Positions 27,717 to 64,000 of a stretch of DNA of 64,000 nucleotides are shown piece after piece; position 1 is the first letter of the stretch, and each line of letters begins with the position of its first letter. The notes beneath the pieces are model-generated. The model worked only from the letters and a program-made list of their open reading frames with translations, ran no database searches and was not told the DNA's origin. The DNA is from Verpa conica (lineage: Eukaryota > Ascomycota > Pezizomycetes > Pezizales > Morchellaceae), in NCBI GenBank assembly GCA_033030425.1, contig JAUFSD010000012.1:1302001-1366000 (forward strand), written 5' to 3'. A program made the translations under genes and the position numbers.

Positions 27717-28868
27717 TTTTACTCTATTTTATAGTTTTTCTGTTTCTTTTGGCTATTGGTTCTTTTTTATTTTTTCAGCGTACTGTGGGTTCGTTTGGGC
27801 GTTGTTATATCGCATTGGACGTTTCGGGACATCCGGGTACTAGGGTGGGTTTTCCGATGTGCTTCATTGCCGGCGCCAAGGGGTTGTGTGATTCGTTGGT
27901 GGGGACGACGTGGGCTCGGATCGAGCGCGGGTATTTCACGGGTACGTTTTCTTGTCAGTACTTCCCCCCCCCATTCTCGCTTATTACGGGGGCTTTTTGA
28001 TTCGGGTATGCGTGTTTGTGGCCGAGGGAAGTAGGTCAACCCCACATTTCATAAGGTCTAAGTGTGGGGTAGGTGGGGGTTACCGTGCGCGGGGTTGGAC
28101 TCAAGTGTAAGGATATAGGTTGGGGTTATTATGTTTACTAAGTCTTGTTTATCTGGTTTTATAAAGATAGTAGTAGTTTAATTGTGCTCGAGATAGTGGA
28201 ATAGAGCAGAACTGTCTAGCTTGCTTCAATTCATTTTTTAGTAGAGTTGAAAGACGGGTTAGTGTTAACTATTAATCTAACCTAATAGCTACCTGGTGAT
28301 ATACTAGTAAAGAGGGGACTCACTACGCAGACACTACTAATAGTACTCTAGCCGACCTCTTATACTTGAACCATCTACAGCACGGTACTGACGTGTTCGG
28401 TCATAGAACGATGAAAATGGAGCATCCCGTCCGCTCTGCTGTACCCAATCATCGTATCGCCTAGTTAGTACTGCAGTATTGTATGTCGAGCTTTCGGGCG
28501 GATAGGGGGGTGGTAGACCCTTTTCGGGTCATTTATGGAGCCTGTTCATGTTCCCACTCATCCTTCGGTTTAATATTTCTAGACCAATATTAATGCCAAG
28601 CATTAGTAGTGAACCAACAAGTCCTTACCCCGGAACCGACAAGTCCTACTACGTGAACCAACAAACCTTCCCCCCTGAACCGGTAGGTCCCTAGATAATC
28701 TTTTTAATAGTAAATTCACGAAAAATGTATCATTCTATAAAAAAATCCCAACATCGAAGCTGGAATTTTTGAGTACTAAAGGACGTACTTCACCCCTCTC
28801 GATTCTACACAACTCAACCATCCAGCTACTTCAATAAATCCTAACAACCTAACTCGCCTTTAGTCAAC
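27717..28868. other. Gap that should contain the left border of the accessory element
   Basis: This lies between the divergent dehydratase promoter and the DUF3435 gene. Several frames overlap on both strands at 27749-28110 with no recognisable product. The stretch 28400-28700 carries short direct repeats. If the right part is a Starship, its 5' terminus and target-site copy lie somewhere here, but I cannot fix the base. Confidence 0.5.
28607..28692 (+). repeat. Short direct repeats upstream of the recombinase gene
   Basis: Four copies of a (T)GAACC(A/G)(A/G)(C/T)AAGTCC-like word occur with 20-25 base spacing: GTGAACCAACAAGTCC, GGAACCGACAAGTCC, GTGAACCAACAAACC and CTGAACCGGTAGGTCC. They end about 180 bases before the ATG. 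Such regularly spaced subterminal words would suit recombinase binding sites, which is inference. Confidence 0.65.
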
Positions 28869-31218
28869 ATGCCCAAAGCTTCCGTTACACGCAATACTAT
28901 ATCTTCCGGTTCGCCGTACATAGCTAGTAGTAAGCTGAACAAAAACAGCACCCCAGCAGAATGGAAAGCTTTCAGGAATCAACGGAAAGCCGCTGCACCG
29001 TCTCAAAAAGTCTATGCTCCTAGTACCATTAAGCAACTAGATCTTCTAAGACAGAGCTGGGATAAGTACGTCTATAATATTGCTGGGCCAGGTCTTTGCC
29101 GTATATTTATGCTAATACACCTAGATTTCACCTCGAAATGTACGAATGCGACCCCCAACAGGCAATGAAAGATATAAAAGACTCAGGGGACATAACCCCT
29201 TGGCTCCATTTTGTATCATCAAACGCAAAGTGTCAAACAACGGTTTCCACGAATTTTAAGAAATTTCAGATGCTTTATAGAGACGCCACGGGGAGTAAGC
29301 TTAAACCATCGATTAACGATCAGGTCAATGCGGTTCGTTTATAATAATCCTTTTCCTTTTCTCTCTCTGGTACTAATAGTTGAGATAGTATATCAAGAGG
29401 GATATGACCATTGAGTGTGACTTGTTTGTCGGTGAAAAGGAAAAGCCGGTTGTCTCGGCGGTGTGTTTCATTCGACTTATCGAAGGTCTTTGGAAGTACC
29501 ATAACTACCAACCTAGTCGCCTAATGCCACAGATTCTATTCAATATGAAGATTATGGCATACACCGCTTCAAGACCTGGCGCTTTAGTAGAGACATCGGC
29601 CTATAAAGGCGAAGGGCTGCTATATAAGGTATGGGGAATCTTGATAGTCATTGTTAAAGAAATACTAACACCCTCCAGGATGTGAAATTAACCCTTATCC
29701 AGCACGAGCCCGGAAAATTCGCACTCGTACTTGAAGTGAGGTTAGAAAGAACCAAAGGCAAAAGGGCTGTTGATTTGCCGTAAGTATTACTACATTCGGG
29801 CATTAGTTATATTGGCTAATAGATTTTAGCCTTACGTTTCTACTTCATGAGATTCGTGATAGGCCGATTATCTGCCCTCTATTCGATTTCCTCTTGTTGG
29901 CTTTCCTCGACCAAGCTTTCGAAGACATAAAATCTCCAGAACAGTTGTATTGCCTTCAGGTGCCACAGGGACTCGATAGCTTACACATCCCTTTTAAGAG
30001 CGATGTGATGGATCTGCCAATAAGTCGTGGAGAAGGCGAAAAGCCCTTGTCATATTCCTCGTTGGATTATATGGTAAAGCACGCAGGCATGGCCGCTGGT
30101 TTTCAACAGGCACCTGGGTGTTATTGGCTACGGAGAGGAGCAGCAAATGCTATAGACAGTAATGTGCCTATCCCTTCAAAACCATGTTTATTTTCTAATT
30201 TTAGAGTCTAGAGGTTTCAACATCTGCCGAGCGGAGGTTGATCTTGGGACATGAAACAAATGCCATATTCAACAGGCACTATCTTAATAGAAAGATTCAA
30301 TGTGATACACAGTCTGCTTTCTTCGGAACGGCCCCGGAAGCCAAAACATTCGAGGTTCTCAGGCGCATAGCAAGAAACCCTGCAGCTCCACAAAAATTGG
30401 ACCCTACAGTGAGACTCACACTATGGGATGATCCTGCTCTAGAGGACTTGATTCGCGAGAGGCAGAGGATTAAGGAAGATCTCAAAAGCCAGGGCAAGAG
30501 GTGGAACGATCACCCAACATTTATGACCGCATATAAAGCAGTAGAGTCCTGGAAGTCCAACCTTCGTAGGGCTGCTATCGCGGAACAAAGGGCTACATTC
30601 TTTCAGGGCGCTAGCAGCAATGAAATTCGTCACCAGCTCGACTCGGAAAGTGGAGAACCATCACAGCATGAGGAAAATCCACGCAACTACAATTCAGATC
30701 AGCAAAGAGAGCTTGTGGAGGCGATCCTCGGCTCTTCACTCCCGGCGCGCCCATGCCCCGAGTTAATTAAGGATTTCATTGACTTCTGTCTGAGCGACCC
30801 GGATGCCATAAAATGTAATCCTACATTCAACCTAGCAGTCGCAAACCAGAGTCTGGGGCCGGAAACAAGCCACTCACAACTGGGAACGGTCGACTCGGAA
30901 CTAGAGATGGTTGATCCAGAGCTGAGATTTATCAACATTAGGCCGAAAATACCTGGATCCATTACACCAGAAATACCTGAGGAGGTTACAATCAGCCCCA
31001 AGTGCATCAAGGTCTTGAAATGCCCTTTTTGCCCCTCTTGGAGAAAGGAGTTCTCGGCTCCAACTAATTTAAAACGTCATGTAAGAAAACAGCACATGAA
31101 GGCATCTAGTAATGCCTCAGGCCTGCTCTCGTGCCCTTCTTCTACATGTAAAGACACATATGAGAAGCCCTATCTTCTCCAAAATCATATTCTTTCTTTT
31201 CATGGAGTTACTCTATAA
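28869..31218 (+). CDS. DUF3435 tyrosine recombinase (Starship captain-like) with C2H2 fingers
   Basis: Six exons (28869..29065, 29125..29332, 29389..29628, 29679..29779, 29830..30163, 30205..31218) join in frame to 697 residues. Splicing yields the DUF3435 order: YIKRDMTIE, then YTASRPGALVETSAYKG, then FLLHEIRDRPIICPLFDFLL, then GCYWLRRGAANAID, then ERRLILGHETNAIFNRHYLNR. Candidate tyrosine-recombinase residues are Arg197, Arg350/351, His376 and Tyr386. The C-terminal part has a helical, charged AEQRATFFQGASSNEIRHQL block, then two C2H2-type fingers (CPFC...H...H and CPSSTC...H...H, residues about 600-697). DUF3435 proteins drive Crypton and Starship mobility. Here it faces DUF3723, patatin and ferric-reductase genes, so a Starship captain is favoured over a small Crypton. 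All motifs look intact. Confidence 0.88.
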
Positions 31219-31971
31219 TAAGGGGTATTTGTATGTGCTAGTTGCTTTAGTTTCCTTAGTTCATTCATTACGCATATTCTATTTTCCTTGTTATTTGTAG
31301 CCTGGATGTACCTCTTTATATACCGTCCTTATATTTCTTTTATTTCTTTTGTTGTAATTTTAAATTTTGCTACGTACCGGGACAGTTATATATCATGGTC
31401 CACGAAATCAATCTATTTTCTTCAGGACTAGCTGCCGAGAATTCTCCCTTACAACCGTTCTTAGATAAGATTATTAAGTAATTGGTGATTAGCCGCTGGT
31501 CAGGGAGTTCATATGGAGTTCCTAGATATCCTATAACCCGTTAAAGAATGCTGCCTCCAGAATGTGGTAGTGGTTTTACGTGGAGAAACCTCGGTGACTA
31601 GTCAGAAATTTTGGAGTTTTGGAGGGGCATCATTGACGGGCTACGGATAACGAGCTTGAGAGCATGTATTATAATACTAGGTTTCGGTGCGATAATTAGA
31701 CAGGATCGCCGATATAGCAGGAAGAATTGACATAATCCCTCCTACAGCTCTGGGAAACAAGTCCTGCCTTCTCATACCCTAAATAACTTTCCCGGACTAA
31801 AGTTAGTAAGAAACATATCATAACACTCGGAAGCAGCGCCTAGAAGGATAAGAGAAAGTTGACTAAAACTCAAGCGATGCGCTAGTAATCCGCCGGGATT
31901 TTTTCCCTTGAATCTAGGTCGTTCCCCCAAATAATGACGGTAGCCAAGATATAGCGGGGGTGGGGAACGTA

Positions 31972-32165
31972 CGGGGTGGGGGGCTGTAGGGGATTGGGAG
32001 TCGTAGGGGATGGGAGGCCGTAGGGGATGGGAGGCCGTAGGGGGTGGGAGGCCGTAGGGTGTGTGAAAACGCCATAATAATCATGTCTAAGATATCGAGC
32101 ACGGGGTGGGAGACCGTAGGGGATGGGAAGCCATAGGGGATGGGAAGCCGTAAGGGGATGGGCTT
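31972..32165. repeat. G-rich minisatellite, unit about 18 bp
   Basis: About nine imperfect copies of GGGATGGGAGGCCGTAG occur in two blocks, 31972-32062 and 32101-32165. The spacer carries an AAGATATCGAGCACGGGGTGGG phrase that echoes the left edge. A solitary related unit (GCCGTAGGGGATGGGCACC) occurs at about 39070. Confidence 0.85.
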
Positions 32166-32280
32166 GTGGTAGCGAGGGTGGGTCTAATAATATGTGGCGG
32201 CGAGCTTCTAGCCACTTACACATGCTATCTTCCTATTCTTAGCAGCGGGCTTATGCCTACTTCAGAGGACTCTATTGGGC

Positions 32281-32330
32281 GATCCTCCAACATCCTCCAA
32301 CATCCTCCAACATCCTCCAACACCCTCAAC
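32281..32330. repeat. CATCCTCCAA tandem array
   Basis: Five 10-bp units lie in tandem, the last diverged to CACCCTCAAC. The reverse complement array AGGATGTTGG lies at 61581-61630, and both are flanked by an AACGTA(G)T(A/G)ATAAG phrase. They are inverted copies of the same repeat 29 kb apart. Confidence 0.9.
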
Positions 32331-32504
32331 GTAGTATAAGCGTATATAACTGGCGGCATGAAGCGGGAACAATGCTAAACGTTACATGTGAATCTTGATT
32401 TGCAATATGTGCTTCAGCTGATAGGTGCGGCATGCAATACGCGTATTTTGCACCTACCGCTTCTACTGGGTGCCAGGGAGCTGTCGTGCCACTACGTTTG
32501 CCAC

Positions 32505-32535
32505 ACCCGAAATGCTACATGTGATACGCGAAACT
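32505..32535 (+). repeat. Copy of dispersed GCTACATGTG repeat family
   Basis: GAAATGCTACATGTGATACG followed by CGAAAC. Related copies are at 58063, 58142, 59148 and, inverted and more diverged, near 60880 and 61382. A further diverged copy may lie at 32370-32395. Confidence 0.6.
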
Positions 32536-32716
32536 TGATTTACAATACAGAATTAACCAATGATATATGCGCCAGGAGTTGCTATACAATACTAGATACA
32601 TTGGCTTGGTACCTCATTTCCGGATATAGTAATCTCTGAAGGCGGATTATATTTTGCATTGCTAAAGTGGAACCATAGAGAACGTAGTCGTCCTGAGGGG
32701 GGAGCTGGACAAAAGG

Positions 32717-32724
32717 TATTTAAG
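32717..32724 (+). promoter_or_regulatory. TATA-like element of the bZIP-like gene
   Basis: TATTTAAG lies 113 bases before the ATG at 32837, followed by the palindromic CGTACCAGTACG and a C/A-rich leader. The placement suits a core promoter. Confidence 0.45.
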
Positions 32725-32836
32725 AGCGTACCAGTACGCTGTAAAGTTTCTGTATCTCAAGCTTCTCATTCACCAAACAACCATAGATTCGATCAACCAA
32801 ACGCTAGAAAATTCTTCTTTACTACCCCTTGACAAT

Positions 32837-33802
32837 ATGAGTGGGCCGAGTAATGGCAATACTTATTACCTACCACCACCCTCCGAAATACGTATACCTT
32901 ATTACCCCCACATACCAGTATATCCTCCAGTTGAACCTCCTCCCTCGCAGAATCGTCACAGGGTTCATCTTCCATCCATCCAAAGCCCTACAGAGAACGG
33001 TATCGACCTAGGAACAAAACCCAAGTGCTTGAACATACCACCCCCCCAAAACTACATACAGGCTCCTGTGTCAATTACGACTCGTTCTCCGCAGAATGGT
33101 CACAGGGTTGATCTTCCATCCATCCAAAGTCTTACAGAGAAGGGCCCCGACGCAGGAACAGAACCCAACTGCTTGAAGCTATCACCCCTCAAAGACTACA
33201 TAGAGGCTCCTGTTCCAATTACGCCTCGTCATCAGTCGGATAGTGACAATATCTCTCTACCAATAGCCCACGGAAGACTTTCGGAGGGCGTTACCAGCCC
33301 AGGACCAGGGTCTACCAACCTCCTACCACCCCTTAACCTCCTACAAGAACCTGTTTCAATTAGACCTCATTACCAGTTGAATATTAGCAACGTTGGTACC
33401 CCAGAAGTATCTTTCAAAACGTTTCTGGAGAGTGATCTCAGCCCAAGGTCGATCTCCTGCTTGGTACCACCTTCCGATCCCCATCTCCAAACGCCTGCTT
33501 TAACCACGCCCCATCAAAGGAGCGCCCTCCAGCCCATAAGACTACCACCGTGCTCACCCGGTCAGCCTTCAGATATACATCCGACCCATAGTATACGCAT
33601 TACACCGCCGCCGGTAGGCAAAGGGACCGTGGCTAAGCCTAACCGGGTGACAAAAGCCCAAAGCGCACTTAGATACCGTGGTCGGCAGAAGCTTACGGCG
33701 CAGACCCAACAAATTTACATAGGTATGCTAGAGAGTCTTGTGGATGAGTTGTATACACAGTTAGATGTTCTGAGAAATGAGAAGGAGGCGGCTAAACTAT
33801 AG
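32837..33802 (+). CDS. bZIP-like protein with Pro-rich repeats
   Basis: A single exon encodes 321 residues. Residues 1-230 are rich in Pro, Ser and His and contain about four degenerate repeats of roughly 50 residues; the best pair shares HRVxLPSIQS-TE and PNCLK/PKCLN-PP. Residues about 265-321 resemble a weak bZIP: a basic part SALRYRGRQK followed by a Leu-rich helix MLESLVDELYTQLDVL. The canonical basic-region Asn is not obvious, so DNA binding is uncertain. A TATA-like box is in place and the frame is intact. It is the first gene after the recombinase. Function unknown; a regulator of element genes is one possibility. Confidence 0.6.
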   Translation: MSGPSNGNTYYLPPPSEIRIPYYPHIPVYPPVEPPPSQNRHRVHLPSIQSPTENGIDLGTKPKCLNIPPPQNYIQAPVSITTRSPQNGHRVDLPSIQSLTEKGPDAGTEPNCLKLSPLKDYIEAPVPITPRHQSDSDNISLPIAHGRLSEGVTSPGPGSTNLLPPLNLLQEPVSIRPHYQLNISNVGTPEVSFKTFLESDLSPRSISCLVPPSDPHLQTPALTTPHQRSALQPIRLPPCSPGQPSDIHPTHSIRITPPPVGKGTVAKPNRVTKAQSALRYRGRQKLTAQTQQIYIGMLESLVDELYTQLDVLRNEKEAAKL

Positions 33803-34052
33803 TTTAGGGTAGATATTGGTGGATATAAATGTACTCTCTTTCGTTTATTTTGTTTCTTTCTTTTGTTATGTGGAATTAAAGGAGGACTGTTGGCTTTTTC
33901 TAGTATTTTGTTCTGTTCTGTTCTCAAAGAAGTGCCTGGAATAAAGGAAGTATATTTATTGATTAGGAAGACGATTGTATTTCAGATATTTGAATTTATC
34001 GAGTATTTTTTATGCCTAACTTCCAATACGCAAATTAATTTCTGATATTAAG

Positions 34053-34585
34053 AAAAAAACGCATCAAATAAACAAAGACACAACAGTGCCAACAGCCCAC
34101 TTGTCGTCATAAAGCTAGATGGCATTAAACAAATATTATACGTTATCAAATCTAGCTACCCAAACATTTAGATTGCACCTAAGCAAATCTCCCACAACAA
34201 CCCCCACCCCAAAAGCTTGACACAAATAGTCACACTAAGCTTATAGCCACTATAGCCCCTGGGGATTCCATAAATAAAATTATTTTTCTTATAGCTATGG
34301 TGGTTGTTTTTGCATACAATGTGGTTGCAACGCAAATGTTTGGGTAGTTTTGCTAACGTATAATACTAAAAAAAAAATGCAACAGTAAACAAGAGACAAA
34401 CCAAAAATGTATAAAAACAACAATACCAACTGACTGCTTATCATATATAAAACTAGATGACATTAAACAAATACCAAACTAAAAACAGAAAAACGCAACA
34501 GTAAACAAAAGGAAACTAAAACATACAAAAAAACACAACAACACTAACTGACTACGTATATATCATAAAACTAGATAACGGTACG
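34053..34585. repeat. Three tandem copies of a 110-bp A-rich repeat
   Basis: Copies at about 34053-34140, 34361-34472 and 34473-34585 share ACGCAACAGTAAACAAA, a CACTAACTGACT-like word and ATAAAACTAGATGACATTAA. The first copy is interrupted at its right end by the inverted-repeat element at 34141-34360. Confidence 0.8.
34141..34360. mobile_element. MITE with about 40-bp terminal inverted repeats and TA target copy
   Basis: The left end reads TACGTTATCAAATCTAGCTA then CCCAAACATTTAGATTGCA. The right end is its reverse complement with few changes (TACGTTAGCAAAACTACCC then AAACATTTGCGTTGCAACC). The element is 220 bp and non-coding, flanked by TA on both sides, as in Tc1/mariner-derived MITEs. It interrupts the A-rich tandem repeat, whose intact neighbour (CATTAAACAAATACCAAACT) supplies the empty site. 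Confidence 0.85.
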
Positions 34586-34643
34586 TAAAAAGAAACAAGA
34601 CCAAAAAAAGTTCCTGTCCCTCATTATCCAAATACATTTTATT

Positions 34644-35237
34644 TTATTCCCATGAACCGGTTATACCCATGATATATCTCAATGTCGACCCGTTTCGCCA
34701 CAAATGGTTCATCCGAAGAACAGTACATCTTTCCTGGAAAGCCTGAATGACTTTATTCTGTCCTTCTATCATCGCACGTGTCATCCTCGGGGCAGTAGCC
34801 GTGGAAATAGCTGCCGCATAGGCCTCATAGATTTTGATGATAGGTTTCATTTCGTTAAGATCGGACTCGGCGGCGTCCAAAATCGTCCAGCATAGGAAAA
34901 TACCCGCAGCCATCCTTGCAAGGATGCTGATAGGTGTCGAGTCCTTGTTGAATTTTGAGTTCATAATTACGCAGGAACCCCAGAGTTCTTCGAAATTGTA
35001 ATGTGCCTTCAAAATATCGCCGGGTTTATCGCCGTCCTCTAAAAAGTTACAGCAGGCTTGGGCCAATAAACTTTTAAAGATAAGCTCCTTCGGTAAGGTG
35101 AGCCTGAGAGATTGACATGAGATGTATGCAAGAAATCGTATATCACTTTCGCTGCATTGGGAAGTCTAGGTATATTGATTAGTTACGAAGTAAGAAAAGA
35201 GGGCAAAATAACATACCGATGCATTATTGAAAGTCAT
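34644..35237 (-). CDS. Hypothetical helical protein
   Basis: Exon 1 is 35217-35237 (MTFNNAS only) and exon 2 is 34644-35165, giving 180 residues. The long second exon is open well beyond its first Met, which supports the tiny first exon found through a GTATGT donor and a CTAG acceptor. The protein is predicted mostly helical, with Cys-rich N-terminal part (SQCSESDIRFLAYISCQSL), a hydrophobic AGIFLCWTILDAAES segment and a basic C-terminus. No family is recognised. It lies 60 bases from the A-rich tandem repeats. Confidence 0.55.
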
Positions 35238-37066
35238 TGTAGCTTTGTTTAATTTGGTGGGATGATTGGAGAAGAATAGAAATTTAGAGCGAGGGAAAAT
35301 GATGCTGAAATGATAGAGTGAGAAAGGTAGTGGTTTGGAGCAAGATTTATGAGAGATATAGTAGGTTGGAAGAGTTGTTCGAATATTGAAGTGAGCTGTA
35401 GATTTGAGGTGGGAATTCGCTCCTATTTATCTTAACTCATATAGATAGACGTAGGTAGAGTTTCTCTCAAGGCAGACCACCCTACCACTCTACGTGGCAG
35501 ATTCTAAAGAAAGCTTTGTGACTCTAGGCATGGAGAATAATGCGCTATCTTGAATTGTAAGTGTCAATTATAAAAATAAATTTGAAATTGGTAGCTACCC
35601 TGATATGCCTCATCCTCATACGCTGCGCCGCACTCACTGTATCAGTACTCCAGTAGAAGCTGCTTATTCCTTTTTGTACTTTAAGCTAAAAGTTTGTTGT
35701 AAATCCAGGCCAGTTCTCCGAAAATTATTCAAAAGGAAACAATAATCCCTGTGAATCTATCAAAAATAAATCCGATAGGCCTAATTTTGCCTTGCCGTCA
35801 GCCAATATACCTTCCGCATGGACTTAGTTCATAGACCTGGTCTACGTACGCTAAGGGTGTTACATTGCGTTTGAGGCTGTCAAGAGTCATACGGGGGTAA
35901 TGCGGAGCTACTTGGGGTACACAATTGGTGCAAATACTTCTCTGTTCAAGTATCAGGAGAACTTGTTGGTCATAGACAAGAGTATACCTTGCATGCTTGA
36001 GACTACTAAGGGCCGCATGGAAGATAATATGGGACTGTTGCCTAGCTTAATATCGTGGGCGCGTTGTAATACGTTGAGGTATTGCAGTATTCTGAGGCTT
36101 TTTTTTTGTCTTTTCTGTTTCATTTATTCCAGTTATGGCGCGTACACTGGGACTTTGCAGTGTGTTGGAATTCCTGGAGAACTTGATATAAAAATTAGCC
36201 TTAGTATTCTAATTTGGGTTACTGGATGAGGGGCACAGGATTCTTTAGCTACGCGGGAGATACTGCCATCAATCTATCATACGCCCCTTTCCGCATATGG
36301 GTTCATATCTCAGTGGTGCTCCTCGCGTCTGGTATAATACAAGTATTTACTGCCCTACTGATTAGGGGCTATGTAAGGCGCATCGTCATTATACATGTGT
36401 TATGTATGATTAGTATTTTCCCCTATCAACTCGAAGATATAGCCATACGTACCTTATATATCGCTCGAAACAAACAACTACCTATAATAGGAATTGATCT
36501 GCCAATAGTGGTGCTAGTATTAATATAGGAGGAAAATATGAGGTTTAGCTATATAAGTTTGTGATTTTTAGTAGTGACGTTGACAGGGTATATAGAAGGG
36601 CAGGGGTGCAACTGACCGTTTCGAGCTGCTATTAGACGTAGCAACTTACATTGAACAAAGTATGAATTGACCTCTGCGCATTATGCGCTAATCCTGCTTT
36701 TGCCATCCTTGTCAATTGTCCCAGTTATAGGCTTGATAAGGGGGGTCTGTAGCGTCTGAAATTGATATAGTAGGTATACAACCAAATTTTCATTCTTTAG
36801 CAAAACATAACATACTAGCTTCTCAGAAACAAAACTGTGTACCTGCAACAGACTTTACTCATTGTGACCCTTTCGAAACAATCTCGCCCAATCTACATAG
36901 TTCTCCGGCCATCCCGACCGTCCATGGTATCAACTGTGCTATGTAGTTGTCAAAAACCCTTGTTAGTGGTTATGTTAGCTACTTGCTCTTGAGACTTCCC
37001 ATCTAATCTAGGTCTTGCTCACCTTACTCGCCCTTCCAAATATTGGATCCTACGCAGAATTGTTAG
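35238..37066. other. Intergenic region of 1.8 kb
   Basis: Two overlapping plus-strand frames (35900-36229 and 36214-36528) contain hydrophobic stretches but no recognisable domain, splice logic or start context, and are not called. The rest is A+T-rich without repeats that I can see. Confidence 0.45.
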
Positions 37067-37486
37067 CTATACGACGTATACACGGCAACATATATCTAAC
37101 GAATCGGAGACACACTTTTCCTTCAACTCATCAACCTCGGTTTTTAAGTCCTTTTTGGAGTCAGGTACATTGATTGATAGCTGTGATACAAGTTCTTTGG
37201 TTTTCTTGCAGGCTTCTGAGAGCTTGTCCGAACCTATAGCTTGGCTGGGGTTGAAAGTACAAAGCTCTGAGTCTTCGGGGATGGTATCCATCAGGATTGG
37301 GGACATCAGAGTTGGAGATATCAGGGTTGACGGAGATATCAGGGTTGACGGGGATATCAGTGTTGGAGATATCAGGGTTGATGGAGATAGAAGATGCTCT
37401 AGGTCAGATGGTACGCACCAGTCGTCCATAAGTTTCCGAAAGTATTCATCATCGCTCAAGAGCATTGGATCAGAAGAGTTATCCAT
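37067..37486 (-). CDS. Small acidic protein with LISPST repeats and coiled-coil end
   Basis: A single exon encodes 139 residues. Residues 1-30 are acidic (DDEYFRKLMDDWCVPSDLEHLL). Residues 32-65 are tandem LISPST/LISPTL repeats. Residues 85-125 are charged and helical (SEACKKTKELVSQL, KKDLKTEVDELKEKC), compatible with a coiled coil. A good TATA box stands 82-88 bases upstream of the ATG, supporting a real gene. The 18-bp repeat GATATCAGGGTTGACGG in the DNA underlies the protein repeat. No family is recognised. Confidence 0.55.
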   Translation of the reverse strand: MDNSSDPMLLSDDEYFRKLMDDWCVPSDLEHLLSPSTLISPTLISPSTLISPSTLISPTLMSPILMDTIPEDSELCTFNPSQAIGSDKLSEACKKTKELVSQLSINVPDSKKDLKTEVDELKEKCVSDSLDICCRVYVV

Positions 37487-37567
37487 TGTGTTGTTAGGGT
37501 CTGTGTTGTTTGGGGTTGTGCTGTCGGGAGCACTTGCGTGGCTGCTAGTGCAATGTTCTTAGTCTTC

Positions 37568-37574
37568 TTTTATA
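37568..37574 (-). promoter_or_regulatory. TATA box of the LISPST-repeat gene
   Basis: On the minus strand this reads GGTATAAAAGAAG, a strong TATA consensus, 82 bases upstream of the start codon at 37486. Confidence 0.55.
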
Positions 37575-37857
37575 CCATTTTTAAGCAACTATTAGCGCAT
37601 TTACCAATATACTATACGAGATTTAGATAAATAGCCGCGCGCAGAAATGTAAACAACCTATCGTGAAATAAAAATAGGCTGTTCGACAGTGAAAGCCCTC
37701 TGTGGCCCATTGGTGGGAGTAAGGTTTTCGGGAAGCATGTTTCACGATGTACATGAACCGTAGGGTCAAATCAAGATTCAAGAATACATGAGTAGATAAC
37801 CGCGTGAACCCGGGGCTATGAAGTATGACGCTGTGTATGCCTCAGTTCCGACGGTAG

Positions 37858-38140
37858 TGAGTACTTGTAATCTCATAGTGTTTTCGGGGCCAGGCTACGG
37901 GGCAGCCACCGACTAGGGGGGCGAGCTCAACAAAGTATTGGCCATATCTCAACCGTACTACCTATATTTGCCCTTGATTTCCTTTAGAGAGTCTATGAAA
38001 ACAGTAGTTGAGTAACATCTAGCACCGTGATAGGAAAGAAAATCACTGTTCACTTGAGCTGTGGTAGTGAGTACATCCTCACATAGGTGGCGGTCCCGGG
38101 CGCCTGGCTCCGAAAACACTATGAGATTACGAGTAGTCGC
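37858..38140. repeat. Internal inverted repeat with about 50-bp arms
   Basis: The left arm is GTAATCTCATAGTGTTTTCG followed by GGGCCAGGC. The right arm is GCCTGGCTCC followed by GAAAACACTATGAGATTAC. The arms are separated by about 175 bases and could form a long stem. They may be ends of a smaller nested element. Confidence 0.7.
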
Positions 38141-38275
38141 TGGTGATGTAGATCCTTCACTCCTCGTGATTCGTGAAACTAGCCCCCAGTGACAACTCAA
38201 ACCTATATATATGCTCCATTTATGCCCGAGTGAATGAGGTAAAATAAAGACTCTACCACCACCGGCAATCTCAAA

Positions 38276-38626
38276 ATGTCTACCACTGAAACCTCTGATC
38301 ATAAGCAAGGTTTGTTACCTCTAGAATTTCAATGTGAATAGTAACTGAACAAAGGGATAGGTCACACGACCTTATGTTGCCACCGACGTATCGAAGCTCT
38401 CGAAGCCCAGCTTATCCAAGCCGAAAAAAGCTATCAAAGACTATACGTTGTCTTCGAGTCCGCTCGTAATGCCGAAACGAAGTGCCATACCATGCAGACC
38501 GAGCTTGAAAAGGCATTGAAAGAGATTGCTCATCTCAATGGTATTATAGCGGTGCTACGGGGGAGGAACATCTGGGGTCTGGGGGAGGAACATCTGGGGT
38601 CTGGGGGAGGAACATCTGGGGTCTAG
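38276..38626 (+). CDS. Small coiled-coil protein
   Basis: Exons 38276..38309 and 38361..38626, joined in frame across a 51-bp GT-AG intron, encode 99 residues. After a polar start (MSTTETSDHKQ) residues about 20-70 form a heptad-rich helix: RRIEALEAQLIQAEKSYQRL, then METELEKALKEIAHLN-like sequence. The C-terminal 25 residues are translated from the 22-bp minisatellite and end at a stop inside it. It was too short and too spliced to appear as one open frame. It resembles in layout the coiled-coil segment at 47824-48072. Function unknown; an oligomerising partner is possible. Confidence 0.55.
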
Positions 38627-38652
38627 GGGAGGAACATCTGGGGTCTAGGGGA
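38559..38652. repeat. 22-bp minisatellite, four copies
   Basis: The unit starts GGGGGAGGAACATCT and ends GGGGTCT. It overlaps the 3' end of the small coiled-coil gene and supplies its stop codon. Confidence 0.9.
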
Positions 38653-38960
38653 GGCTACAAAGGAGATTGATCAATCTATGTAACTGGACAGCTAGTGCGA
38701 AATAGAATGAAGTTTAATTACTTCACGAGAAATAAAAATAGCTAGTTCTAAATTCTTAGCACTGCTTCCCGAAAACCTTACTCCCACCAATGGGCCACAG
38801 TGGTCTTTCACTGCCCACTAGAAACCACAGTGGCCCATACTAACCTTTGAAAAAGGCTTATATGCGTTTGATGGACCAATGCTTTTTGGGATGTGAAGAG
38901 CCTTCCCCCCCTCAAAAATTGAAAACAGATCGTAACACAACACCCCTATCTACGTACTAT

Positions 38961-38998
38961 TCCCGAAAACCTTACTCCCACCAATGGGCCACAGAGGG
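38961..38998 (+). repeat. Solitary third copy of the 38.8-kb element end
   Basis: TTCCCGAAAACCTTACTCCC then ACCAATGGGCCACAGAGG matches the right end of the TIR element at 38769-38806 in the same orientation, about 190 bases downstream. Confidence 0.85.
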
Positions 38999-39254
38999 GC
39001 GGCCCTGAATGAAGTATTATATCTAGAACCGTGAGCCACTAGTTAGCCCCAATGGTTGCTTTTGCTGCGCCGTAGGGGATGGGCACCAGATCTGATGGGC
39101 ACGAGACTACATGCATACCATGTCCATAATATCTTTCTCCTCCTGGGATATACCTCTCTCCACATTTAAGTCAAGGCGTTTATCGTCAGATATACTCTCA
39201 TAATGAATGAGGAGGTGTGTGTTTAGTTGGGTTTTGACTTTTTCGCCGTCAGGT

Positions 39255-39542
39255 TTACCACCTTCGATTCGTAGGTATTAGCTGGAGGGCAGCCACTGGG
39301 GCTGGGGCTGGGGCTGGGCTGGGGCTGGGGCTGGGGTAAAAACCTTCATTATCGAGCACATACATATTACGGAGTTGCTTTAATTTTGACCGTACGCCAT
39401 CATATGCTCTAGGTTTTAGGCCAGGTTCTCTTGGGGTTTTGTGGGCTAGTAGCTTTGCAATACCTTCATGGGTGATTCCATGGTATAGGTAAAGGTAAAG
39501 ATAGGCTATCTCTTCCTGTGACCAGTAGCTTGAGTGGGGCAT
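39255..39542 (-). CDS. Small Myb/SANT-like protein
   Basis: I take the ATG at 39542, giving 95 residues (MPHSSYWSQEEI...). The frame is open further upstream to 39674, but that part translates a 16-bp minisatellite and has a TATA box inside it, so it is more likely leader. Residues about 5-60 look like a Myb/SANT or homeodomain-like helix-turn-helix: SYWSQEEIAYLYLYLYHGI, HEGIAKLLAHKTP, AYDGVRSKLKQL. The tail is a Pro-Ala-Ser repeat. A similar domain is in the neighbouring gene at 40007 on the other strand. Probable DNA-binding protein, moderate confidence. Confidence 0.5.
   Translation of the reverse strand: MPHSSYWSQEEIAYLYLYLYHGITHEGIAKLLAHKTPREPGLKPRAYDGVRSKLKQLRNMYVLDNEGFYPSPSPSPAPAPAPVAALQLIPTNRRW
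39295..39336. repeat. GGGGCT hexamer repeat
   Basis: Seven copies of a 6-base GGGGCT unit with one slipped copy encode the Pro-Ala/Pro-Ser tail of the minus-strand Myb-like gene. Confidence 0.85.
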
Positions 39543-39552
39543 AGTATTAAAT

Positions 39553-39630
39553 AGAGTATGTGGGACGTAGAGTATGTGGGACGTAGAGTATGTGGGACGT
39601 AGAGTATGTGGGACGTAGAGTATGTGGGTA
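39553..39630. repeat. 16-bp minisatellite, nearly five copies
   Basis: Perfect AGAGTATGTGGGACGT units in tandem lie in the probable 5' leader of the minus-strand Myb-like gene. Confidence 0.9.
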
Positions 39631-39653
39631 GATCTAGGACCTGGGGCACTTGT

Positions 39654-39661
39654 CTTTATAT
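39654..39661 (-). promoter_or_regulatory. TATA-like element of the minus-strand Myb-like gene
   Basis: It reads AATATAAAG on the minus strand, about 115 bases before the chosen start at 39542 and inside the extended open frame. This favours the internal start. Confidence 0.4.
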
Positions 39662-39732
39662 TCCCGTTGGGCAAGCTAGCAAAGGCTTTAGGTTAAAAGA
39701 CGAGATACGGGGTAGACCCTGAAGACCCCATC

Positions 39733-39788
39733 GGTTCCGCATCTTCGGTTCCGCATCTTCTGTTCCGCATCTTCGGTTCCGCATCTTC
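39733..39788. repeat. 14-bp minisatellite, four copies
   Basis: GGTTCCGCATCTTC is repeated four times with one base change. It lies between the two divergent Myb-like genes. Confidence 0.9.
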
Positions 39789-40006
39789 CAAAATACGCGC
39801 TTAGTGCTAAGCCAAGAATTAAGGCACCCCTCGCTTGTGACTATCGCCACATACGCCGAAAATACGCACTGTGGTGTCATCAGGCGTCAGTGTAGATCCC
39901 TGGCCCTAATTGAAAGGAGTTGCATGTGCGGTTGCCAGTAGTATGTGAATAGCTTAAGTACTAGGGTTCAGGCGTCCATATCTTAAACAACTAGACTCAA
40001 TTAATT

Positions 40007-40499
40007 ATGAAGACAAAGGCCTATACCACCGAGGATATCCATACCATCCTACGTTTGCACGAAAAATACGGCGACAAGCAGTGGGCGAAAATCCAGAAAG
40101 AATTTAATACACAGGCAGTGATACAAAGATCACAGGAGGGTTTGCGGAATAAGTATTACACTACACGGAAAAAAGTAATCGATCCGCTAGTACTATCACT
40201 ATCGTGCCGTTATTCAGCTAACGACCTAGAAACCAACTCCTACACCCGAACCAGATAAGGAGCTTCCCACCTCCCCCGATAACCACCCTCAAGGCTACCC
40301 AAGCGTCAAGGAGCTTCCCATCTCCCCCGACAATCAACCTCAAGGCTACCCAAGCGTCAAAGAGTCTTCCCCAAGTTCACCCTCGACCGGAAATAGCAGC
40401 TTAGTGGGATTAGTTGCAATGGGTGAAGGGAGGTATGGTCAGTGTTTAATTGGATATGGTCAAATGGGGCGCAAGTGGCCATCAGAGTACTTTATTTAG
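40007..40499 (+). CDS. Myb/SANT-like protein with Pro-rich repeated tail
   Basis: Exons 40007..40189 and 40230..40499 join over a 40-bp intron with a GCTAACG branch site, giving 150 residues. Residues 4-58 form a Myb/SANT-like domain: YTTEDIHTILRLHEKYGDKQ, WAKIQKEFN and GLRNKYYTTRKK, with the Trp and helix pattern of the third Myb helix. Residues 62-120 are two copies of KELPxSPDNxPQGYPSV. The intron is short, but without it the second repeat array would be out of frame; the frame stays open through both copies only after splicing. Probable DNA-binding protein divergent to the Myb-like gene at 39255. Confidence 0.6.
40255..40360 (+). repeat. 51-bp coding direct repeat
   Basis: Two nearly identical copies of AAGGAGCTTCCCA(C/T)CTCCC through CTACCCAAGCGTC encode KELPxSPDNxPQGYPSV in the second exon of the Myb/SANT-like gene. 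Confidence 0.85.
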
Positions 40500-40723
40500 T
40501 CCTAGTGCTTCAAGAAGGCTTTTGTTTCGGCCTAAATATAAAATATCGTGGTAAAAATACTATTAATATCTGCCATAAGTGCTAAGTCTAAAAGGATGCA
40601 TGCTGTTATCTCAGTGAATTTCGTCAGTAATATATGGCCATTTAAGTTTCCTCTTAATTACAAATACCAGAAAAACGACGTATTTACGATTAATTCATTC
40701 ATTCATTCACTAGAACAACAAGT

Positions 40724-49928: not shown

Positions 49929-50249
49929 GGCTGGTTTCGTGGTTTGTTCTTGCCAGGGAATTGGTGATAAGAACTGACCTAAGTGAAGTTTTATAAGAGG
50001 CTATAGAGTACTCCTAAGACTAGGCCCATGTAATTACCCGAATCCCGATCCAGTATAGGAGTATCCTTGACTAGCATATTTAAGCTCTCTCGAACTCACG
50101 CCGGCTTCATGTAACCCACACCGGCTCTCCGTAGCTAGTTCCAGCCGTTTAGAGCCTAGTATAACCAAAAATAGATCCTCTATAGGTAATATACTTAGTG
50201 TATAAGAACTACCTTTCGTAACACTTCTATTGAGCCAGTCAGTCAAACC

Positions 50250-52030: not shown

Positions 52031-52464
52031 AAGGGGATATATCGCTATTATTTTTATCAATTCCATAGTGTTACCATATAGACCTACTTAGACTCCCACT
52101 TATCTCAAGGAGGCTGAAACTAGCGTTGCTTGTTGGTACGACTCACTGTAGATCGTCCTCGTATTAGGCGGTATATAGCCGCCGCCTGATAGAATTGATG
52201 TCACGGTTCCAAGAGGTGTCGATGCAACTAGTTTATGGTCCTTGCCCCTCCTCTAGAATAGAATCTAAGCCAATAAGCGATATTATTTTATCGTTTGGTG
52301 ACGGTTCCCACGGCTTCCCAGACAGTTTCAGACCTAGATTAAACTTCACCCCAAGTAAGAATCCGGGAGACCCCCGGGATCGCTAGAAGCTACAGGCTCT
52401 ATAAAGACTGGCACCTCACAAGAAATTCCATCCCCACCGACACGCAATTCATACCACAGGAACC

Positions 52465-52954
52465 ATGACATCAAAAGAGTCTGTAGAGAAACGGAACGCG
52501 AGAAACAAGTTCAGAAGACGGAGAGGCGCCATCATGAACAAGGCTTATGAGCTCAGCAAGCTCTGCGACGCAAAAATTTCCTTAATCATAGAAAAGGACG
52601 GCCGCTACTATACCTTCAGATCTACCGAGAATGAATCGTGGCCACCAACGATGAAGGAAATTGTTAGCTAATACCTCTCCAATACCTACGTCTGTTGCTA
52701 ATAAATCCCAGCAAAAAAGTTACCCTTCACCTGAGCACAGGCTCCCAGCTCACTTTGAGAAACAGCGTGTCGCTGAGACAACTCCCCCAAGAAAACCAAA
52801 CCCCGTCCTCGTACCTCCCTCCTTAGACCCAGACCAGATACTATCGGACTTAGTTCCTGGCCCCCGAAGGATTCAGATCAATAAATATCTAACCCTTCCT
52901 CAACCACAGAGAAGATCATATTTGGTGGATTATTTGCAATTTGTATTTCTTTAA
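52465..52954 (+). CDS. MADS-box (SRF-type) protein, small
   Basis: Exons 52465..52662 and 52712..52954 give 146 residues. Residues about 8-58 match a MADS domain: EKRNARNKFRRRRGAIMNKA, then YELSKLCDAKISLII, then KDGRYYTF. The pattern KA(Y/F)ELSxLCDA is the signature of SRF/MEF2-type DNA-binding helices. The rest is Pro-rich (PRKPNPVLVPPSLDP) and ends with a hydrophobic YLVDYLQFVFL. The intron donor is GTTAGC, weaker than usual, but it keeps frame and removes a stop. Full-length fungal MADS regulators (Mcm1, Rlm1 types) are much longer. Probable DNA-binding protein carried as cargo. Confidence 0.68.
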
Positions 52955-54449: not shown

Positions 54450-54859
54450 TGAGCTTACATATAGCTAAACACTTTGTATAATTTAGGTGATATACATAAA
54501 AAAGGAGTACACTATCTTGTTCTGGTCAGTTACACTACTATATTTAGATATATTAATTGTTTGCGCTGAGGTGAAGTCGTTCACCTAATGGGAACTAAAA
54601 ACAGTCGCCTACTACTTGCAACTCAAAGTTGCTCCTCGCAAAGATATAAAGTCTCATTACAGACCTCGACTTTCTCACAAGAAATAATAACACCTAAAAA
54701 CACCATCTTAAAGAACCTAAAACGTCCTATACATATCCCGCCCTATCTATCACAACTCCCGACAGACATACAGACAGACCTTTCTTTTCACCCTTAGCTA
54801 CTACACTCGCATCTTTCCCATATTCCCTTTTCTTAGAGTCTTTACCATACCACTCAAAT

Positions 54860-56290
54860 ATGGCGAAAGACTCAAATACGGGGAAAGTTCAAAAGAAAAC
54901 CATGGCTGAAGTCGCAGCCCGAAAGACCAAGAGAGAACTTCTGAGCAGTTGGAGGAAGATTTTCGAAAATTCAACGAGCAGAAAATTTCAATTAGAGAAG
55001 CCTGTTATGGACGGCAGTGCCACTGAGGTTGAAAGGCTCGAGTACGAGAAATTACAGAGCGAAATTGATGATTTGCAACAGAGTATAGACACAGCAGCTG
55101 CGGAAGTAATGGATTGGGAGAAGGATGAAGCGGAAGAAGGGGGTGAAGAGAAGGGAGAAGGGAGTGAAGAGAAGGGAGAAGGGAGTGAAGAGAAGGGAGA
55201 AGGGGGTGAAGTGAAGGAAGTAGAGGAGCTTATGGATGATGTGGTGGAGGAAGTAGAGGAGCCTAAGGAGAAGGAGAAACACAAGAAACGCCAGAAACGT
55301 GGGAAATACACCAAAGAAGAGCTTGATGAAGATCCAGTATTTGAACTTGATAATAATATGTGGAGCTTTAATGGCCGTGTCGAAGGCTGTATGAAGTCTG
55401 GGTTTGGACATCGATTGCTCATAGCACGTGGACCACGGAGATTCTGTATCTACCGCCTAATCGCATCTAGCACGTACCCTGGAACATGGACTAGTGCTGG
55501 GAGTAACAAAATTGCGGGCCGGAAACTTGAAAATGATAGTTCTAAGACTGATCGACCTACCTTTAAGATCCTCGGGGTTGCATACGACGATAAGGGCCGC
55601 GGGCCAGATATCATAGATCCATCGAATTATGCTCCAGGCAAAAAAGGAAAGTTCCCGCCTACGTATATAAAGGTACGCTGGAGTGATAACGATTCAACTA
55701 CTTGGGAAACTAGAACAGTGTTGCGTTCATTTTATGGGAAAATGGGTGCGGACAAGTGCATTTTCCAGGCCGCAGAAAAGTTTGAGGGGGATGCGGCGCG
55801 TTTTCTCAAGAAGAACCCGAACTGGCACAAGAAGGAGGATCCTGATTGGAAGAAAAAGCATATCAAAATTGAAGATAGCGATACCGACGACAGCTCCGAC
55901 TCCGACTCCGACTCCGACTCCGACTCCGACTCCGACTCTGACTCCGACTCCGACTCTGACTCCGACTCCGACTCCGACTCTGATGATGAAGAGGAGAAGG
56001 GGAAGGAGGAGGCGAGAAAGGAGAAGATAAGGAAGGAGAAGGAGGAGAAGGAGAGGAAGGAGAAGGAGGAGAAGGAGAGGAAGGAGAAGGAGGAGAAGGA
56101 GAGGAAGGAGAAGGAGGAGAGGGAGAGGAAGGAGAGGAAGGAAAAGAAGGAGAAGGGGGAGGGGAAGGAGAAGAAAGAGAAGAAAGAGAAGAAGGAGAGG
56201 AAGAAGGAAAAGAAGGAGAAGGGGGAGGGGAAGGAGAAGAAGGAGAAGAGTAAGGGGAAAAACAAAGTGAAAACCGAAGGTTTGACTTAA
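54860..56290 (+). CDS. Acidic, low-complexity protein with chromo-like segment
   Basis: A single exon encodes 476 residues. Residues 60-80 have a short coiled coil (LEYEKLQSEIDDLQQSI). Residues 95-125 are Glu/Gly repeats (EEKGEGS). Residues about 150-315 are the only globular part: FELDNNMWSFNGRVEGCMKS, RRFCIYRLI, then FKILGVAYDDKGR and YIKVRWSDNDSTTWETRTVL. The last stretch looks like a chromodomain beta-sheet plus Trp. Then come about 17 Ser-Asp pairs and a Lys/Glu-rich tail of about 90 residues (KEEKERKE units). Likely nuclear from its charge and KKRQKRGK stretches. Function unknown. Frames on the opposite strand are shadows of the low-complexity DNA. Confidence 0.6.
   Translation: MAKDSNTGKVQKKTMAEVAARKTKRELLSSWRKIFENSTSRKFQLEKPVMDGSATEVERLEYEKLQSEIDDLQQSIDTAAAEVMDWEKDEAEEGGEEKGEGSEEKGEGSEEKGEGGEVKEVEELMDDVVEEVEEPKEKEKHKKRQKRGKYTKEELDEDPVFELDNNMWSFNGRVEGCMKSGFGHRLLIARGPRRFCIYRLIASSTYPGTWTSAGSNKIAGRKLENDSSKTDRPTFKILGVAYDDKGRGPDIIDPSNYAPGKKGKFPPTYIKVRWSDNDSTTWETRTVLRSFYGKMGADKCIFQAAEKFEGDAARFLKKNPNWHKKEDPDWKKKHIKIEDSDTDDSSDSDSDSDSDSDSDSDSDSDSDSDSDSDSDDEEEKGKEEARKEKIRKEKEEKERKEKEEKERKEKEEKERKEKEERERKERKEKKEKGEGKEKKEKKEKKERKKEKKEKGEGKEKKEKSKGKNKVKTEGLT
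55885..55983 (+). repeat. (GACTCC)n hexanucleotide repeat
   Basis: About sixteen GACTCC/GACTCT units in tandem encode the Ser-Asp run. Confidence 0.9.
56002..56262 (+). repeat. Purine-only GGAGAAGGA repeat
   Basis: Almost uninterrupted A/G on the plus strand for about 260 bases, coding the Lys/Glu tail. The mirror-symmetric purine tract could form triplex DNA in vitro. Confidence 0.85.
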
Positions 56291-56928: not shown

Positions 56929-57846
56929 TCACATTAATAGGGCTAATAGGGTGAGGGGGCGGGATTCGATCGGTTTGAGTAGTTTCCCCCCTTCGAATAT
57001 ACCGCTGACGTAGTTCTTATTTTGATATAAGAACCAACAAGCTTCCATAGTCCCAGAAGTATATGCGTTTTCGAATGGCGAAAGGGTTTCCCCCTCTTGA
57101 TGGACTAGGGCACCTTTCTCAAGCAGCAAGGACATGTACTCGACTATACCATCATGTCCACGCGGACCATTACCGGCTAACATGCAGAGGGGACTGCGAC
57201 CTTTACAGCCGCGGTTGACATCAGCGCCGCGCTCGATAAGAAATTTTATCATAACTTTATTAAACTCGTAGCATGAAAGATAAAATGCTGTTGCACCATG
57301 GGGGTCGAGAGTATTAATAGATATGATACCCTCGCTAAGAAGTTGATCAAGGAACTTTAGTATAGCCGGGCTGCGAGACTGGAGGGCTGCAGTGCAGAGA
57401 AGGGGGTTAGGGGTATCCACCCAATCGCCAAGAATGCGGTTCCGACAAAGAAGCTCCACCATTTCTATGTTATCCAGTAGGATTGCGGCATGAAGTACTG
57501 TATATCGATACCCAGTCCCCCCCACCTTGATATTGGCTCCGCCATCTATCAATATTGAAAGACTCTCAAGATCCCGAGCTAAGAGTATTGGGGGGTTGCC
57601 ACAGGTTCCTATCTTGTCGATGATACCAGCCGGTTGATACTTCTTGTGGAATCTCATGAGATCATGATTATTACACAGTACGGCGTTGTAAAGTGACAGC
57701 TCGATAGGTATACGGTCATATAACACTTTACCAAGCGAGGAATTAAGCATATGGCAAGTTCGGCGAAGGCGGGACAAATCCTTGTAGTCAAGGCACTTGG
57801 CTATGGCAAGGATTACTTCCATGGGTAAAATAGGTAATGTGGACAT
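56929..57846 (-). CDS. F-box protein with ankyrin repeats
   Basis: A single exon encodes 305 residues. Residues 4-45 are an F-box (LPILPMEVILAIAKCLDYKD, then LSRLRRTCHMLNSSL), the docking module for Skp1 in SCF ubiquitin ligases. From about residue 60 come ankyrin repeats, with clear examples at 85-115 (ESLSILIDGGANIKVGG), 118-150 (VLHAAILLDNIEMVELL), 190-225 (ATAFYLSCYEFNKVMIKF then LIERGADVNRG) and 230-265 (SPLCMLAGNG then LLEKGA). F-box/ankyrin proteins are abundant and expanding in many ascomycetes. This one looks intact; its target is unknown. Confidence 0.82.
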   Translation of the reverse strand: MSTLPILPMEVILAIAKCLDYKDLSRLRRTCHMLNSSLGKVLYDRIPIELSLYNAVLCNNHDLMRFHKKYQPAGIIDKIGTCGNPPILLARDLESLSILIDGGANIKVGGTGYRYTVLHAAILLDNIEMVELLCRNRILGDWVDTPNPLLCTAALQSRSPAILKFLDQLLSEGIISINTLDPHGATAFYLSCYEFNKVMIKFLIERGADVNRGCKGRSPLCMLAGNGPRGHDGIVEYMSLLLEKGALVHQEGETLSPFENAYTSGTMEACWFLYQNKNYVSGIFEGGKLLKPIESRPLTLLALLM

Positions 57847-58062
57847 TCTATATCCTTGAGGGAGATGGTGGATAGGAAGATGAAGAGGCGGAGCTGATGG
57901 GGAAGAGTTGATGGAGGGAACTAATGGAGGGAAGAAATAATGGAGAGAAAAGCTGATCGAGGGAAGGACTGAGTGGCATTTATACCAGTTGAATCAGTAA
58001 AGCTGTATGAAAACCCCCGGCATAGGCAAGGCGTACGTCGTAGTATAGTATCCTATCGCATT

Positions 58063-58112: not shown

Positions 58113-58141
58113 ATCATTCATACGGTATAATATTATATCAT

Positions 58142-59192: not shown

Positions 59193-59623
59193 TTACCGCA
59201 CTTAGCGTATATATACACAGTCTAGATCTCGTACTTGAACCCCTTACTTCGTAGATCCTAATATACAGTAAGGATATTTCCAGGGGTACAGGAACGGTAA
59301 AAAAAGATCCAGAAACCCGAGACACGAGAATCAGCGTTTCTATTCGTTCTTTAGGTTTTGGAAAAGACTCTAGTAGTAGGGTTGGCCGCAAGACCCTGTT
59401 AGCAGACCCTTATTTCTCGATCTTTTTTGCCATACGCTATATCTACCGCACATACAACAAATTTCCAAGGTCACCCCCAAGCTTTCATATATTCTTTTAA
59501 AGTGTGTGCTCAACCGCGTGTCTTGAGCGCTAAAGTACCCACCTGCCAAGATCTCGAACGCTGCCAAGCCGAGTAAACTTTATTGTTTCACCCCGCCTAC
59601 CCCACTTCCTCCCTCACGCCACA

Positions 59624-62901: not shown

Positions 62902-63478
62902 AGCGTTGGTACATGTGTTTTATCGTGAAGGACAAATTAAACTGGTTACATACTTCCTTTTACTCGAGTTGTGCTTTTAGGATTAAATCTGATCACAAGT
63001 TCAATTACTATACTTTCCATGAGCCCTTAGGATGAGCCTGGGCATCCTAGGATATATAAACCAATCGGGCGCAGCCTTGTGGCTTCTTGATGGTGCGCAG
63101 TACATATAAGATTTACACGTTGTGAACATACTAGTACAGTCGCTCGTGACCAGGGATCTAAAGAGTAACGGGCTGGAAACTCCTACCGCGGTTAGCCAAG
63201 TGACTATACGTAACGCCAGTAACTTTCATACCCGGGGAATCGGTGGAGATAAATCATTGGTGTTCTTCCTTGTAACTAACTAAATAAGACACATCTCGTT
63301 TCAAGCTATAATGTTATGTTTATTTTTAGGGTGTAAAAGATGGGAGCGGGTGCCAAGAACAACACCTTTAAACCCACAAGCGCGGACACACGAAAGGGGC
63401 TGAAAATCTCGACACGAGTATTTAACCTCAGAGAGTCTGCCCCGCATCCCATCAACACCACAGCAAAGAGTATTCGGT

Positions 63479-64000
63479 ATGTCAAGACAAGTAGCACCAG
63501 AGTTTAGAGCGCTGATGGAGCAAATGGGAAACACCCTTAAACCAGAACCACTCCGGGTATATTAATTCGTATAATAGTGTGACATTACTATGCTAACAAA
63601 GAGTAGGAGATATTTCGAGAGTACTGGAAGATCGACGTACGCCGCTGGACAGAGTTGGATGATGAAATCATAAAGAAGGTTGAGAATGAGATTAGAAGGA
63701 GGGTTTTACCTACACGGATTCCTCAGGATGAGAATGAGAGGGAAGAGTTTTACGCATGTTTAACACGCTTAACGAATGATGCATGGGGTAAGAGTTGGCA
63801 GAATAGGAAACATGAAAACACTAGGAAATCAAAGCAACTAAAAAGGCTAAAGGGTAAGTCATTAGATAAGCCCCCCTCCCTCTTTGTCAATTAACAGATA
63901 CTAGGTACTAACAAGTCAATAACAAGGATCGAGTGAGGGGGCTACTCCAAACCCGACCTCAAGCGAAGCGACCCCAAATAAACCGATACTAGACCAGGAG
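63479..64000 (+). CDS. Small basic protein, paralogue of the gene at 59624 (3' end beyond window)
   Basis: Exons 63479..63556, 63607..63853 and 63927 onward are read. The second intron has a perfect GTAAGT donor, a TACTAAC branch site and an AACAAG acceptor, and exon 3 stays open to the last base of the window (SSEGATPNPTSSEATPNK...). The core REYWKIDVRRWTELDDEII then KKVENEIRRRV matches the 59624 protein. A Lys/Arg-rich stretch follows (KHENTRKSKQLKRLKGK). The true start may lie further up: an open segment from 63340 encodes PHPINTTAKSI, close to PHQLTAKTVYS in the paralogue, but I could not find splice sites that join it. Confidence 0.5.

Follow-up and report, generated by a model that had tools for sequence, protein, structure and literature searches.

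Genes and borders of the element

We analysed a 64,000-bp stretch of the Verpa conica genome (assembly GCA_033030425.1, contig JAUFSD010000012.1, here C12), C12:1302001-1366000, which we call the window; positions without a contig name are given in its numbering. The genome searched is the 45.8-Mb assembly with its 25 contigs. The window contains a gene for a DUF3435 tyrosine recombinase, one part of a split 5S ribosomal RNA (rRNA) gene and a series of cargo genes. They belong to a 40,000-bp element on C12, 28477-68476, which we interpret with high confidence as a Starship.

The element lies on the forward strand, and 35.5 kb of its 40.0 kb are inside the window (28477-64000). Its 3' end is found 4.48 kb beyond, at 68476 (C12:1370476, or L009:4476 in the numbering of the adjoining locus). 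Both edges are set by the ends of homology with a second copy on contig C10 and by the split of the 5S gene. The original prediction, made from the window alone, had placed the start at 28000, about 480 bp too far to the left. It had rightly expected at least 35 kb of element and a 3' end outside the window, and the search beyond 64 kb that it advised located this end together with a target-site repeat, GCAG.

The first gene, only 392 bp from the edge at 28477 and facing inward, is the recombinase that is called the captain in Starships. It runs from an ATG at 28869 to a stop at 31218 on the forward strand, and the predicted model has 697 residues in six exons (28869-29065, 29125-29332, 29389-29628, 29679-29779, 29830-30163 and 30205-31218). 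The spliced model scores 201.2 bits against the DUF3435 profile (PF11917), of whose 418 positions it covers 23-395, in agreement with the earlier claim of an inward-facing DUF3435 recombinase at the edge. Its C-terminus contains C2H2-like zinc-finger motifs; zf-C2H2 scores 19.7 bits, below the cut-off of 25.2, and a second finger was recognised by eye.

To the left, ordinary metabolism had been predicted up to about 27.7 kb, and the single gene scanned on that side, at 26467-27336, is indeed enolase-like (MR_MLE_C, 221.1 bits).

A split 5S rRNA gene

A genome search with window 27700-32700 returned 45 rows: the window itself, two rows from the C10 captain region, one other repeat match and 41 short matches. 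The near-identical C10 captain region starts at window 28473-28474, and the 41 short matches cover about 90 bases just left of the element start. Five of these loci were fetched and scanned, and all five are intact 5S genes (Rfam RF00001, 77.3-78.6 bits), so the element start falls within a 5S gene.

The left part of this gene, 5S positions 1-84, is located at 28393-28476 on the forward strand and is identical to an intact 5S copy. The right part, positions 81-119, lies outside the window at 68477-68515, and the 3' portion of the 5S gene has one exact occurrence, 68486-68515, in the window and the 200 kb to its right. The 5S context of the right edge opens with CTGCAGT at 68475-68481. The GCAG at 28473-28476, which corresponds to 5S positions 81-84, has its direct-repeat partner at 68477-68480. 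When 28393-28477 is joined to 68482-68515, all 119 of 119 positions are identical to the intact gene, with 0 mismatches.

Genome-wide, RF00001 gives at least 41 matches, a lower bound as for repeats generally. Forty are over the cut-off (38 of 120 nucleotides, two of 108), and the split copy, with 33.4 bits, is the sole one below it. The split probably also explains the zero matches of an Rfam scan at gathering score, which covered the window and six of the 20 right-hand loci (L009-L014). An additional partial 5S-like match, C2:1648083 (83%), comes from the search with 27700-32700 only. For the right junction a 5S gene on contig C20 is, judging by the alignment, a paralogous empty site, with 91% similarity across 200 bp that start within the 5S gene and reach into the flank downstream of it.

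A second copy on contig C10

DNA searches with nearly the whole element (32701-33199 was left out) identify two long copies, the one on C12 and one at C10:160860-197262, where the element proper is 36,395 bp long. Apart from these, the searches return short repeats, a stretch on contig C25 and, at C10:297114-298098, a patatin-like stretch (71%). The C10 copy terminates in the same end bases as the C12 copy, but its flanks are non-5S DNA. The C12 site reads AGTACT-GCAG-TATTG ... GCATCT-GCAG-TGGGTG and the C10 site CACTGCC-GCAG-TATTG ... GCATCT-GCAG-CAGGCC. When the joined C10 flanks are searched back against the genome, their overlap is precisely GCAG (query 189-192); no paralogous empty site was returned for this insertion, its flanks matching only short repeats elsewhere. 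A 5S-like fragment on the 3' side of the C10 element (query 395-454) belongs to another short repeat.

Because the C10 copy ends at identical bases in different flanks, both termini are confirmed, and this argues against a misassembly. At the 5S site the direct repeat appears to be 7 bp long (CTGCAGT), and the repeat shared by both insertions is GCAG. The apparent extra length comes from the element itself, whose last bases are CT and whose first base is T, the same as those around GCAG in the 5S gene.

The two copies differ at 83 of 33,266 aligned bases in four blocks, not counting 39 gaps and three inserts, and 71 of the 83 mismatches are transitions. Three of the blocks have 9/3254, 20/7678 and 36/20,886 mismatches; the fourth, at the left, is discussed below. 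A C in the C12 copy faces a T in the C10 copy (both strands) at 57 sites, and the opposite direction is seen at 14. Of the 57 sites, 24 are at CpG, against a background of 2445/14,627. Repeat-induced point mutation of the Neurospora type was rejected as the source of this excess, as CpA is not favoured (12/57 versus a background of 3957/14,627).

The C10 copy has two insertions, each with a 5-bp duplication: one of 1.26 kb in captain exon 5 and one of 1.46 kb at window-equivalent 47456-47460. Its first DUF3723 exon has a TAG that is not in the C12 copy. A 6.6-kb segment of the C12 copy, 33171-39779, which contains several short repeats spread across the genome, is missing in the C10 copy, which has a repeat of about 370 bp in its place. 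A diverged sequence on C25 spans the right edge of this gap (39001-39986, 86%), which makes a deletion in the C10 copy the probable explanation. On sequence grounds the C10 copy is decaying, its captain broken by the insertion, and the C12 copy seems able to move.

The 1.46-kb insertion and the 370-bp repeat (L034-L037) share both ends, with 93% and 88% identity; the former looks like a transposon and the latter like its internally deleted form. The C25 sequence is part of a diverged copy of window 37679-39986 (L038, C25:1061501-1071000). An intact 5S gene lies about 3.6 kb away, at C25:1070156, and the diverged copy may represent either a paralogous gene of the host or the trace of a cargo gain close to a 5S site.

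Identification as a Starship

Starships are giant cut-and-paste DNA transposons moved by their DUF3435 tyrosine recombinase, and we assign 28477-68476 to them with a probability of roughly 0.95. Passages of PMC12289983 give the captain as the first gene of a Starship and the length as 15-700 kb. Here the recombinase is first at the 5' end and faces inward, and the lengths are 40,000 bp (C12) and 36,395 bp (C10). Direct repeats are described for Starships in parts of PMC12257634 and PMC10128009, and GCAG flanks both ends of both copies. Cargo is present: DUF3723 and a ferric reductase with its FAD-binding domain exceed the Pfam cut-offs, and the pieces of a patatin-like gene stay below theirs. 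Mobility is indicated by the two sites in one genome and by the 5S gene that is restored on paper at 119/119 positions. The C12 copy is inserted in 5S ribosomal DNA (rDNA), as are the 5S Starships of the Osiris/Enterprise kind, and the C10 copy is not in a 5S gene.

The Starship reading of the original prediction is thus borne out by the inward-facing first gene, the direct repeats, the cargo, the two sites and the exact restoration of the target gene. Among the gene classes that it saw together, DUF3435, DUF3723 and ferric reductase hold, and the patatin-like gene does not reach its cut-off in any piece. As to the presence/absence variation that it looked for, the second site provides this within a single genome, not across strains or species.

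Three other explanations were weighed. The 5S gene is a multicopy repeat of 119 bp and as such prone to misjoins, so that a false join during assembly might have created a split that is not real. We regard this as very improbable, for the two 5S parts are complementary and lie 40 kb apart on one contig, in the same orientation and with a repeat in common, and the C10 copy has both end bases where the flanks are not 5S. The presence of two near-identical copies of 36-40 kb would also fit a segmental duplication of a lineage-specific region with a solo DUF3435 gene by chance and no transposition. This is no easier to credit, as the homology ends exactly at GCAG on both sides with the captain at one edge, and the target gene is interrupted without losing a base. 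Least likely of all is a Crypton or other tyrosine-recombinase element: Cryptons likewise use such recombinases, and inverted repeats were undetected here, but the protein matches DUF3435, which passages of PMC12134995 give as the domain that marks captains, over most of the profile, and 40 kb of cargo that includes DUF3723, ferric reductase and patatin-like genes is unlike a Crypton, which has its recombinase without large cargo. The original prediction had named grouping with Cryptons as the outcome that would count against a Starship; the DUF3435 match, a comparison with the Pfam domain, answers this in part.

Several observations weigh against the Starship interpretation. Movement is inferred from sequence, at two sites within one genome. 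No terminal inverted repeat above chance was detected in an ungapped comparison of the two 40-bp ends, the best 12-mer having 8/12 matches, equalled in 885 of 3000 shuffles; asymmetric or gapped repeats would escape this test. None of the 30 open frames scanned, of which 29 belong to the element, encodes an NLR; many shorter frames were left unscanned. The fifth intron of the captain measures only 41 bp, and every splice site comes from the predicted model. Finally, the left 1.45-kb block is the most diverged between the copies (18/1448).

Mechanism and target choice

By analogy with published Starship work, the captain would join the two ends of the element by recombination and so release it, probably in circular form, and would then recombine the circle joint with a target. 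The excised circle would read ...GCATCTGCAGTATTGTATG... across the joined element ends, and the end bases predict the joint CTGCAGT. The same seven bases make up 5S positions 79-85, which makes the 5S gene the probable preferred target. The GCAG at 5S positions 81-84 falls within the internal promoter region of the 5S gene. The C10 site, CCGCAGC, has only GCAG and one outer C in common with the joint and is therefore probably a secondary target.

A more specific proposal, which we hold only tentatively and consider rather unlikely, is that the element ends imitate the bases next to a 4-bp core in the 5S gene, positions 79-80 and 85. The 5S gene would then match the circle joint over 7 bp, other sites would need little beyond GCAG, the two copies would separate the required GCAG from the preferred 5S context, and the captain lineage would possibly stand apart from the 5S-targeting Enterprise family.

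To define Starship borders, other strains are normally required, and here a single genome shows each border two times. Since one of the two targets lies within an essential multicopy gene and the other does not, the choice between core GCAG and 5S context becomes directly testable. The repeat read at a single 5S insertion can exceed the bases common to independent sites, which calls for caution when elements are classified by repeat length. The pair also shows a possible route of decay, with a transposon inserted in the captain, cargo deleted next to a small repeat and a drift from C to T.

Cargo genes and repeats

Behind the captain there is an open frame of 378 residues with a 144-bp tandem repeat (32666-33802, forward strand, no Pfam match), followed by a Myb/SANT-like DNA-binding frame (39995-40255, forward, PF00249 32.5 bits). 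The DUF3723 gene, with at least three exons, is at 40694-42621 on the forward strand (PF12520 302.3, 100.5 and 62.8 bits, the last from the N-terminal exon alone).

A patatin-like phospholipase occupies 44212-47341 on the reverse strand, with PF01734 at 27.2 and 23.5 bits on separate exons (cut-off 27.7). A cysteine-rich segment precedes the domain, and the motifs DGGGIRG, GTSSG and DGG can be read directly. That 46397-47341 is part of this gene is a guess, the segment alone being without a Pfam match. A protein-kinase-like gene with a 21-bp coding repeat follows at 48857-50000, reverse strand (PF00069 23.6 and 25.4 bits, below the cut-off of 31.7).

The ferric reductase-like gene has several exons at 50250-52030 on the forward strand (PF01794 32.3 bits, PF08022 46.3 bits), its ends and 3' exons placed by eye. 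Next come a MADS-box (SRF-type) frame (52405-52668, forward, PF00319 42.3 bits), a low-complexity frame of 530 residues without a Pfam match (54698-56290, forward) and an F-box and ankyrin-repeat protein (56929-57993, reverse, PF12796 50.9 bits, PF00646 21.0 bits).

Short repeats of about 150-280 bp that occur genome-wide are found at approximately 34135-34366, 37862-38136 and 59287-59442 and at L009:3447-3592. They are like short interspersed nuclear elements or miniature inverted-repeat transposable elements. Left of the element, 6966-10378 is dense in tandem repeats, the majority of which have periods of 57-177 bp.

Other DUF3435 genes in the genome

DUF3435 has eight matches in the genome at four loci, one in the window and three on C10. 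The captain is 23.6-37.2% identical to the two other distinct DUF3435 genes (five tblastn pieces). By eye, the three genes have in common the R of SRPGA/GRPGA, an RRG motif, GH and a later Y, as well as C2H2-like motifs near the C-terminus. We take the shared R, RR, GH and Y to be candidate catalytic residues, as in tyrosine recombinases. When relatives of captain exon 6 were sought in viral contigs, three stretches fitted a pattern, none of them confirmed, and a search of solved structures gave one match, a ribosomal protein with E 0.1, treated as chance.

One diverged DUF3435 gene, C10:373180-373644, shares its strand with a DUF3723 piece that lies about 23 kb farther downstream, C10:395926-397085 (L003, L004), and this pair is a second candidate Starship. 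The other, C10:124929-126324 (L001, L002), is about 35 kb from the C10 element copy. Just downstream of the captain there is a 17-bp tandem repeat (31968-32059), and a relative of it (82-84%) is found at C10:127629-127740 (L002), about 1.3 kb downstream of this second gene. Contig C10 also carries DUF3723 at 27 kb and a patatin-like stretch at 297 kb, and its first 400 kb look rich in Starship-type genes.

Comparison with known systems

No description of the element was found in the open-licence literature searched, a result of little weight since the search was made without the host name. The C12 element shares a tyrosine recombinase with Cryptons, whose recombinases are very distantly related to captains and which have no large variable cargo, according to passages of PMC12134995; the same passages define the captain and mention solo DUF3435 genes and 5S as a known target. 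Inverted repeats in Starships are frequent, asymmetric and not universal in the parts of PMC12257634 and PMC10128009 that treat them.

Hephaestus, Phoenix, Galactica and Tardis share the captain-first layout, short direct repeats and cargo, as described in sections of PMC12153272 and PMC12257634, and differ in their targets or repeats (for example Hephaestus TTAC(N7)A, Phoenix TTTAC, Galactica A(N)TAGT). Voyager (Gluck-Thaler et al. 2022, via passages of PMC10128009) has both DUF3435 and DUF3723, like the C12 element, but its reported target, AGAATACAGGGC, differs from the CTGCAGT of 5S positions 79-85. The same passages list 5S rDNA as a Starship target and FRE, PLP and NLR genes as usual companions.

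The closest likeness is with Osiris of the Enterprise family, a published 5S-targeting Starship of Aspergillus fumigatus (PMC12153272, in part). The mean length of Osiris h1 is 37.6 kb, compared with 40.0 kb here. The Osiris paper, in the passages concerned, generally associates direct repeats longer than 6 bp with 5S targeting, whereas C12 and C10 share a repeat of 4 bp, which appears as 7 bp at the 5S site. Functions reported there for Osiris, such as putative biosynthetic clusters, are not seen in the C12 element. The element is a further example of the known 5S-targeting kind of Starship.

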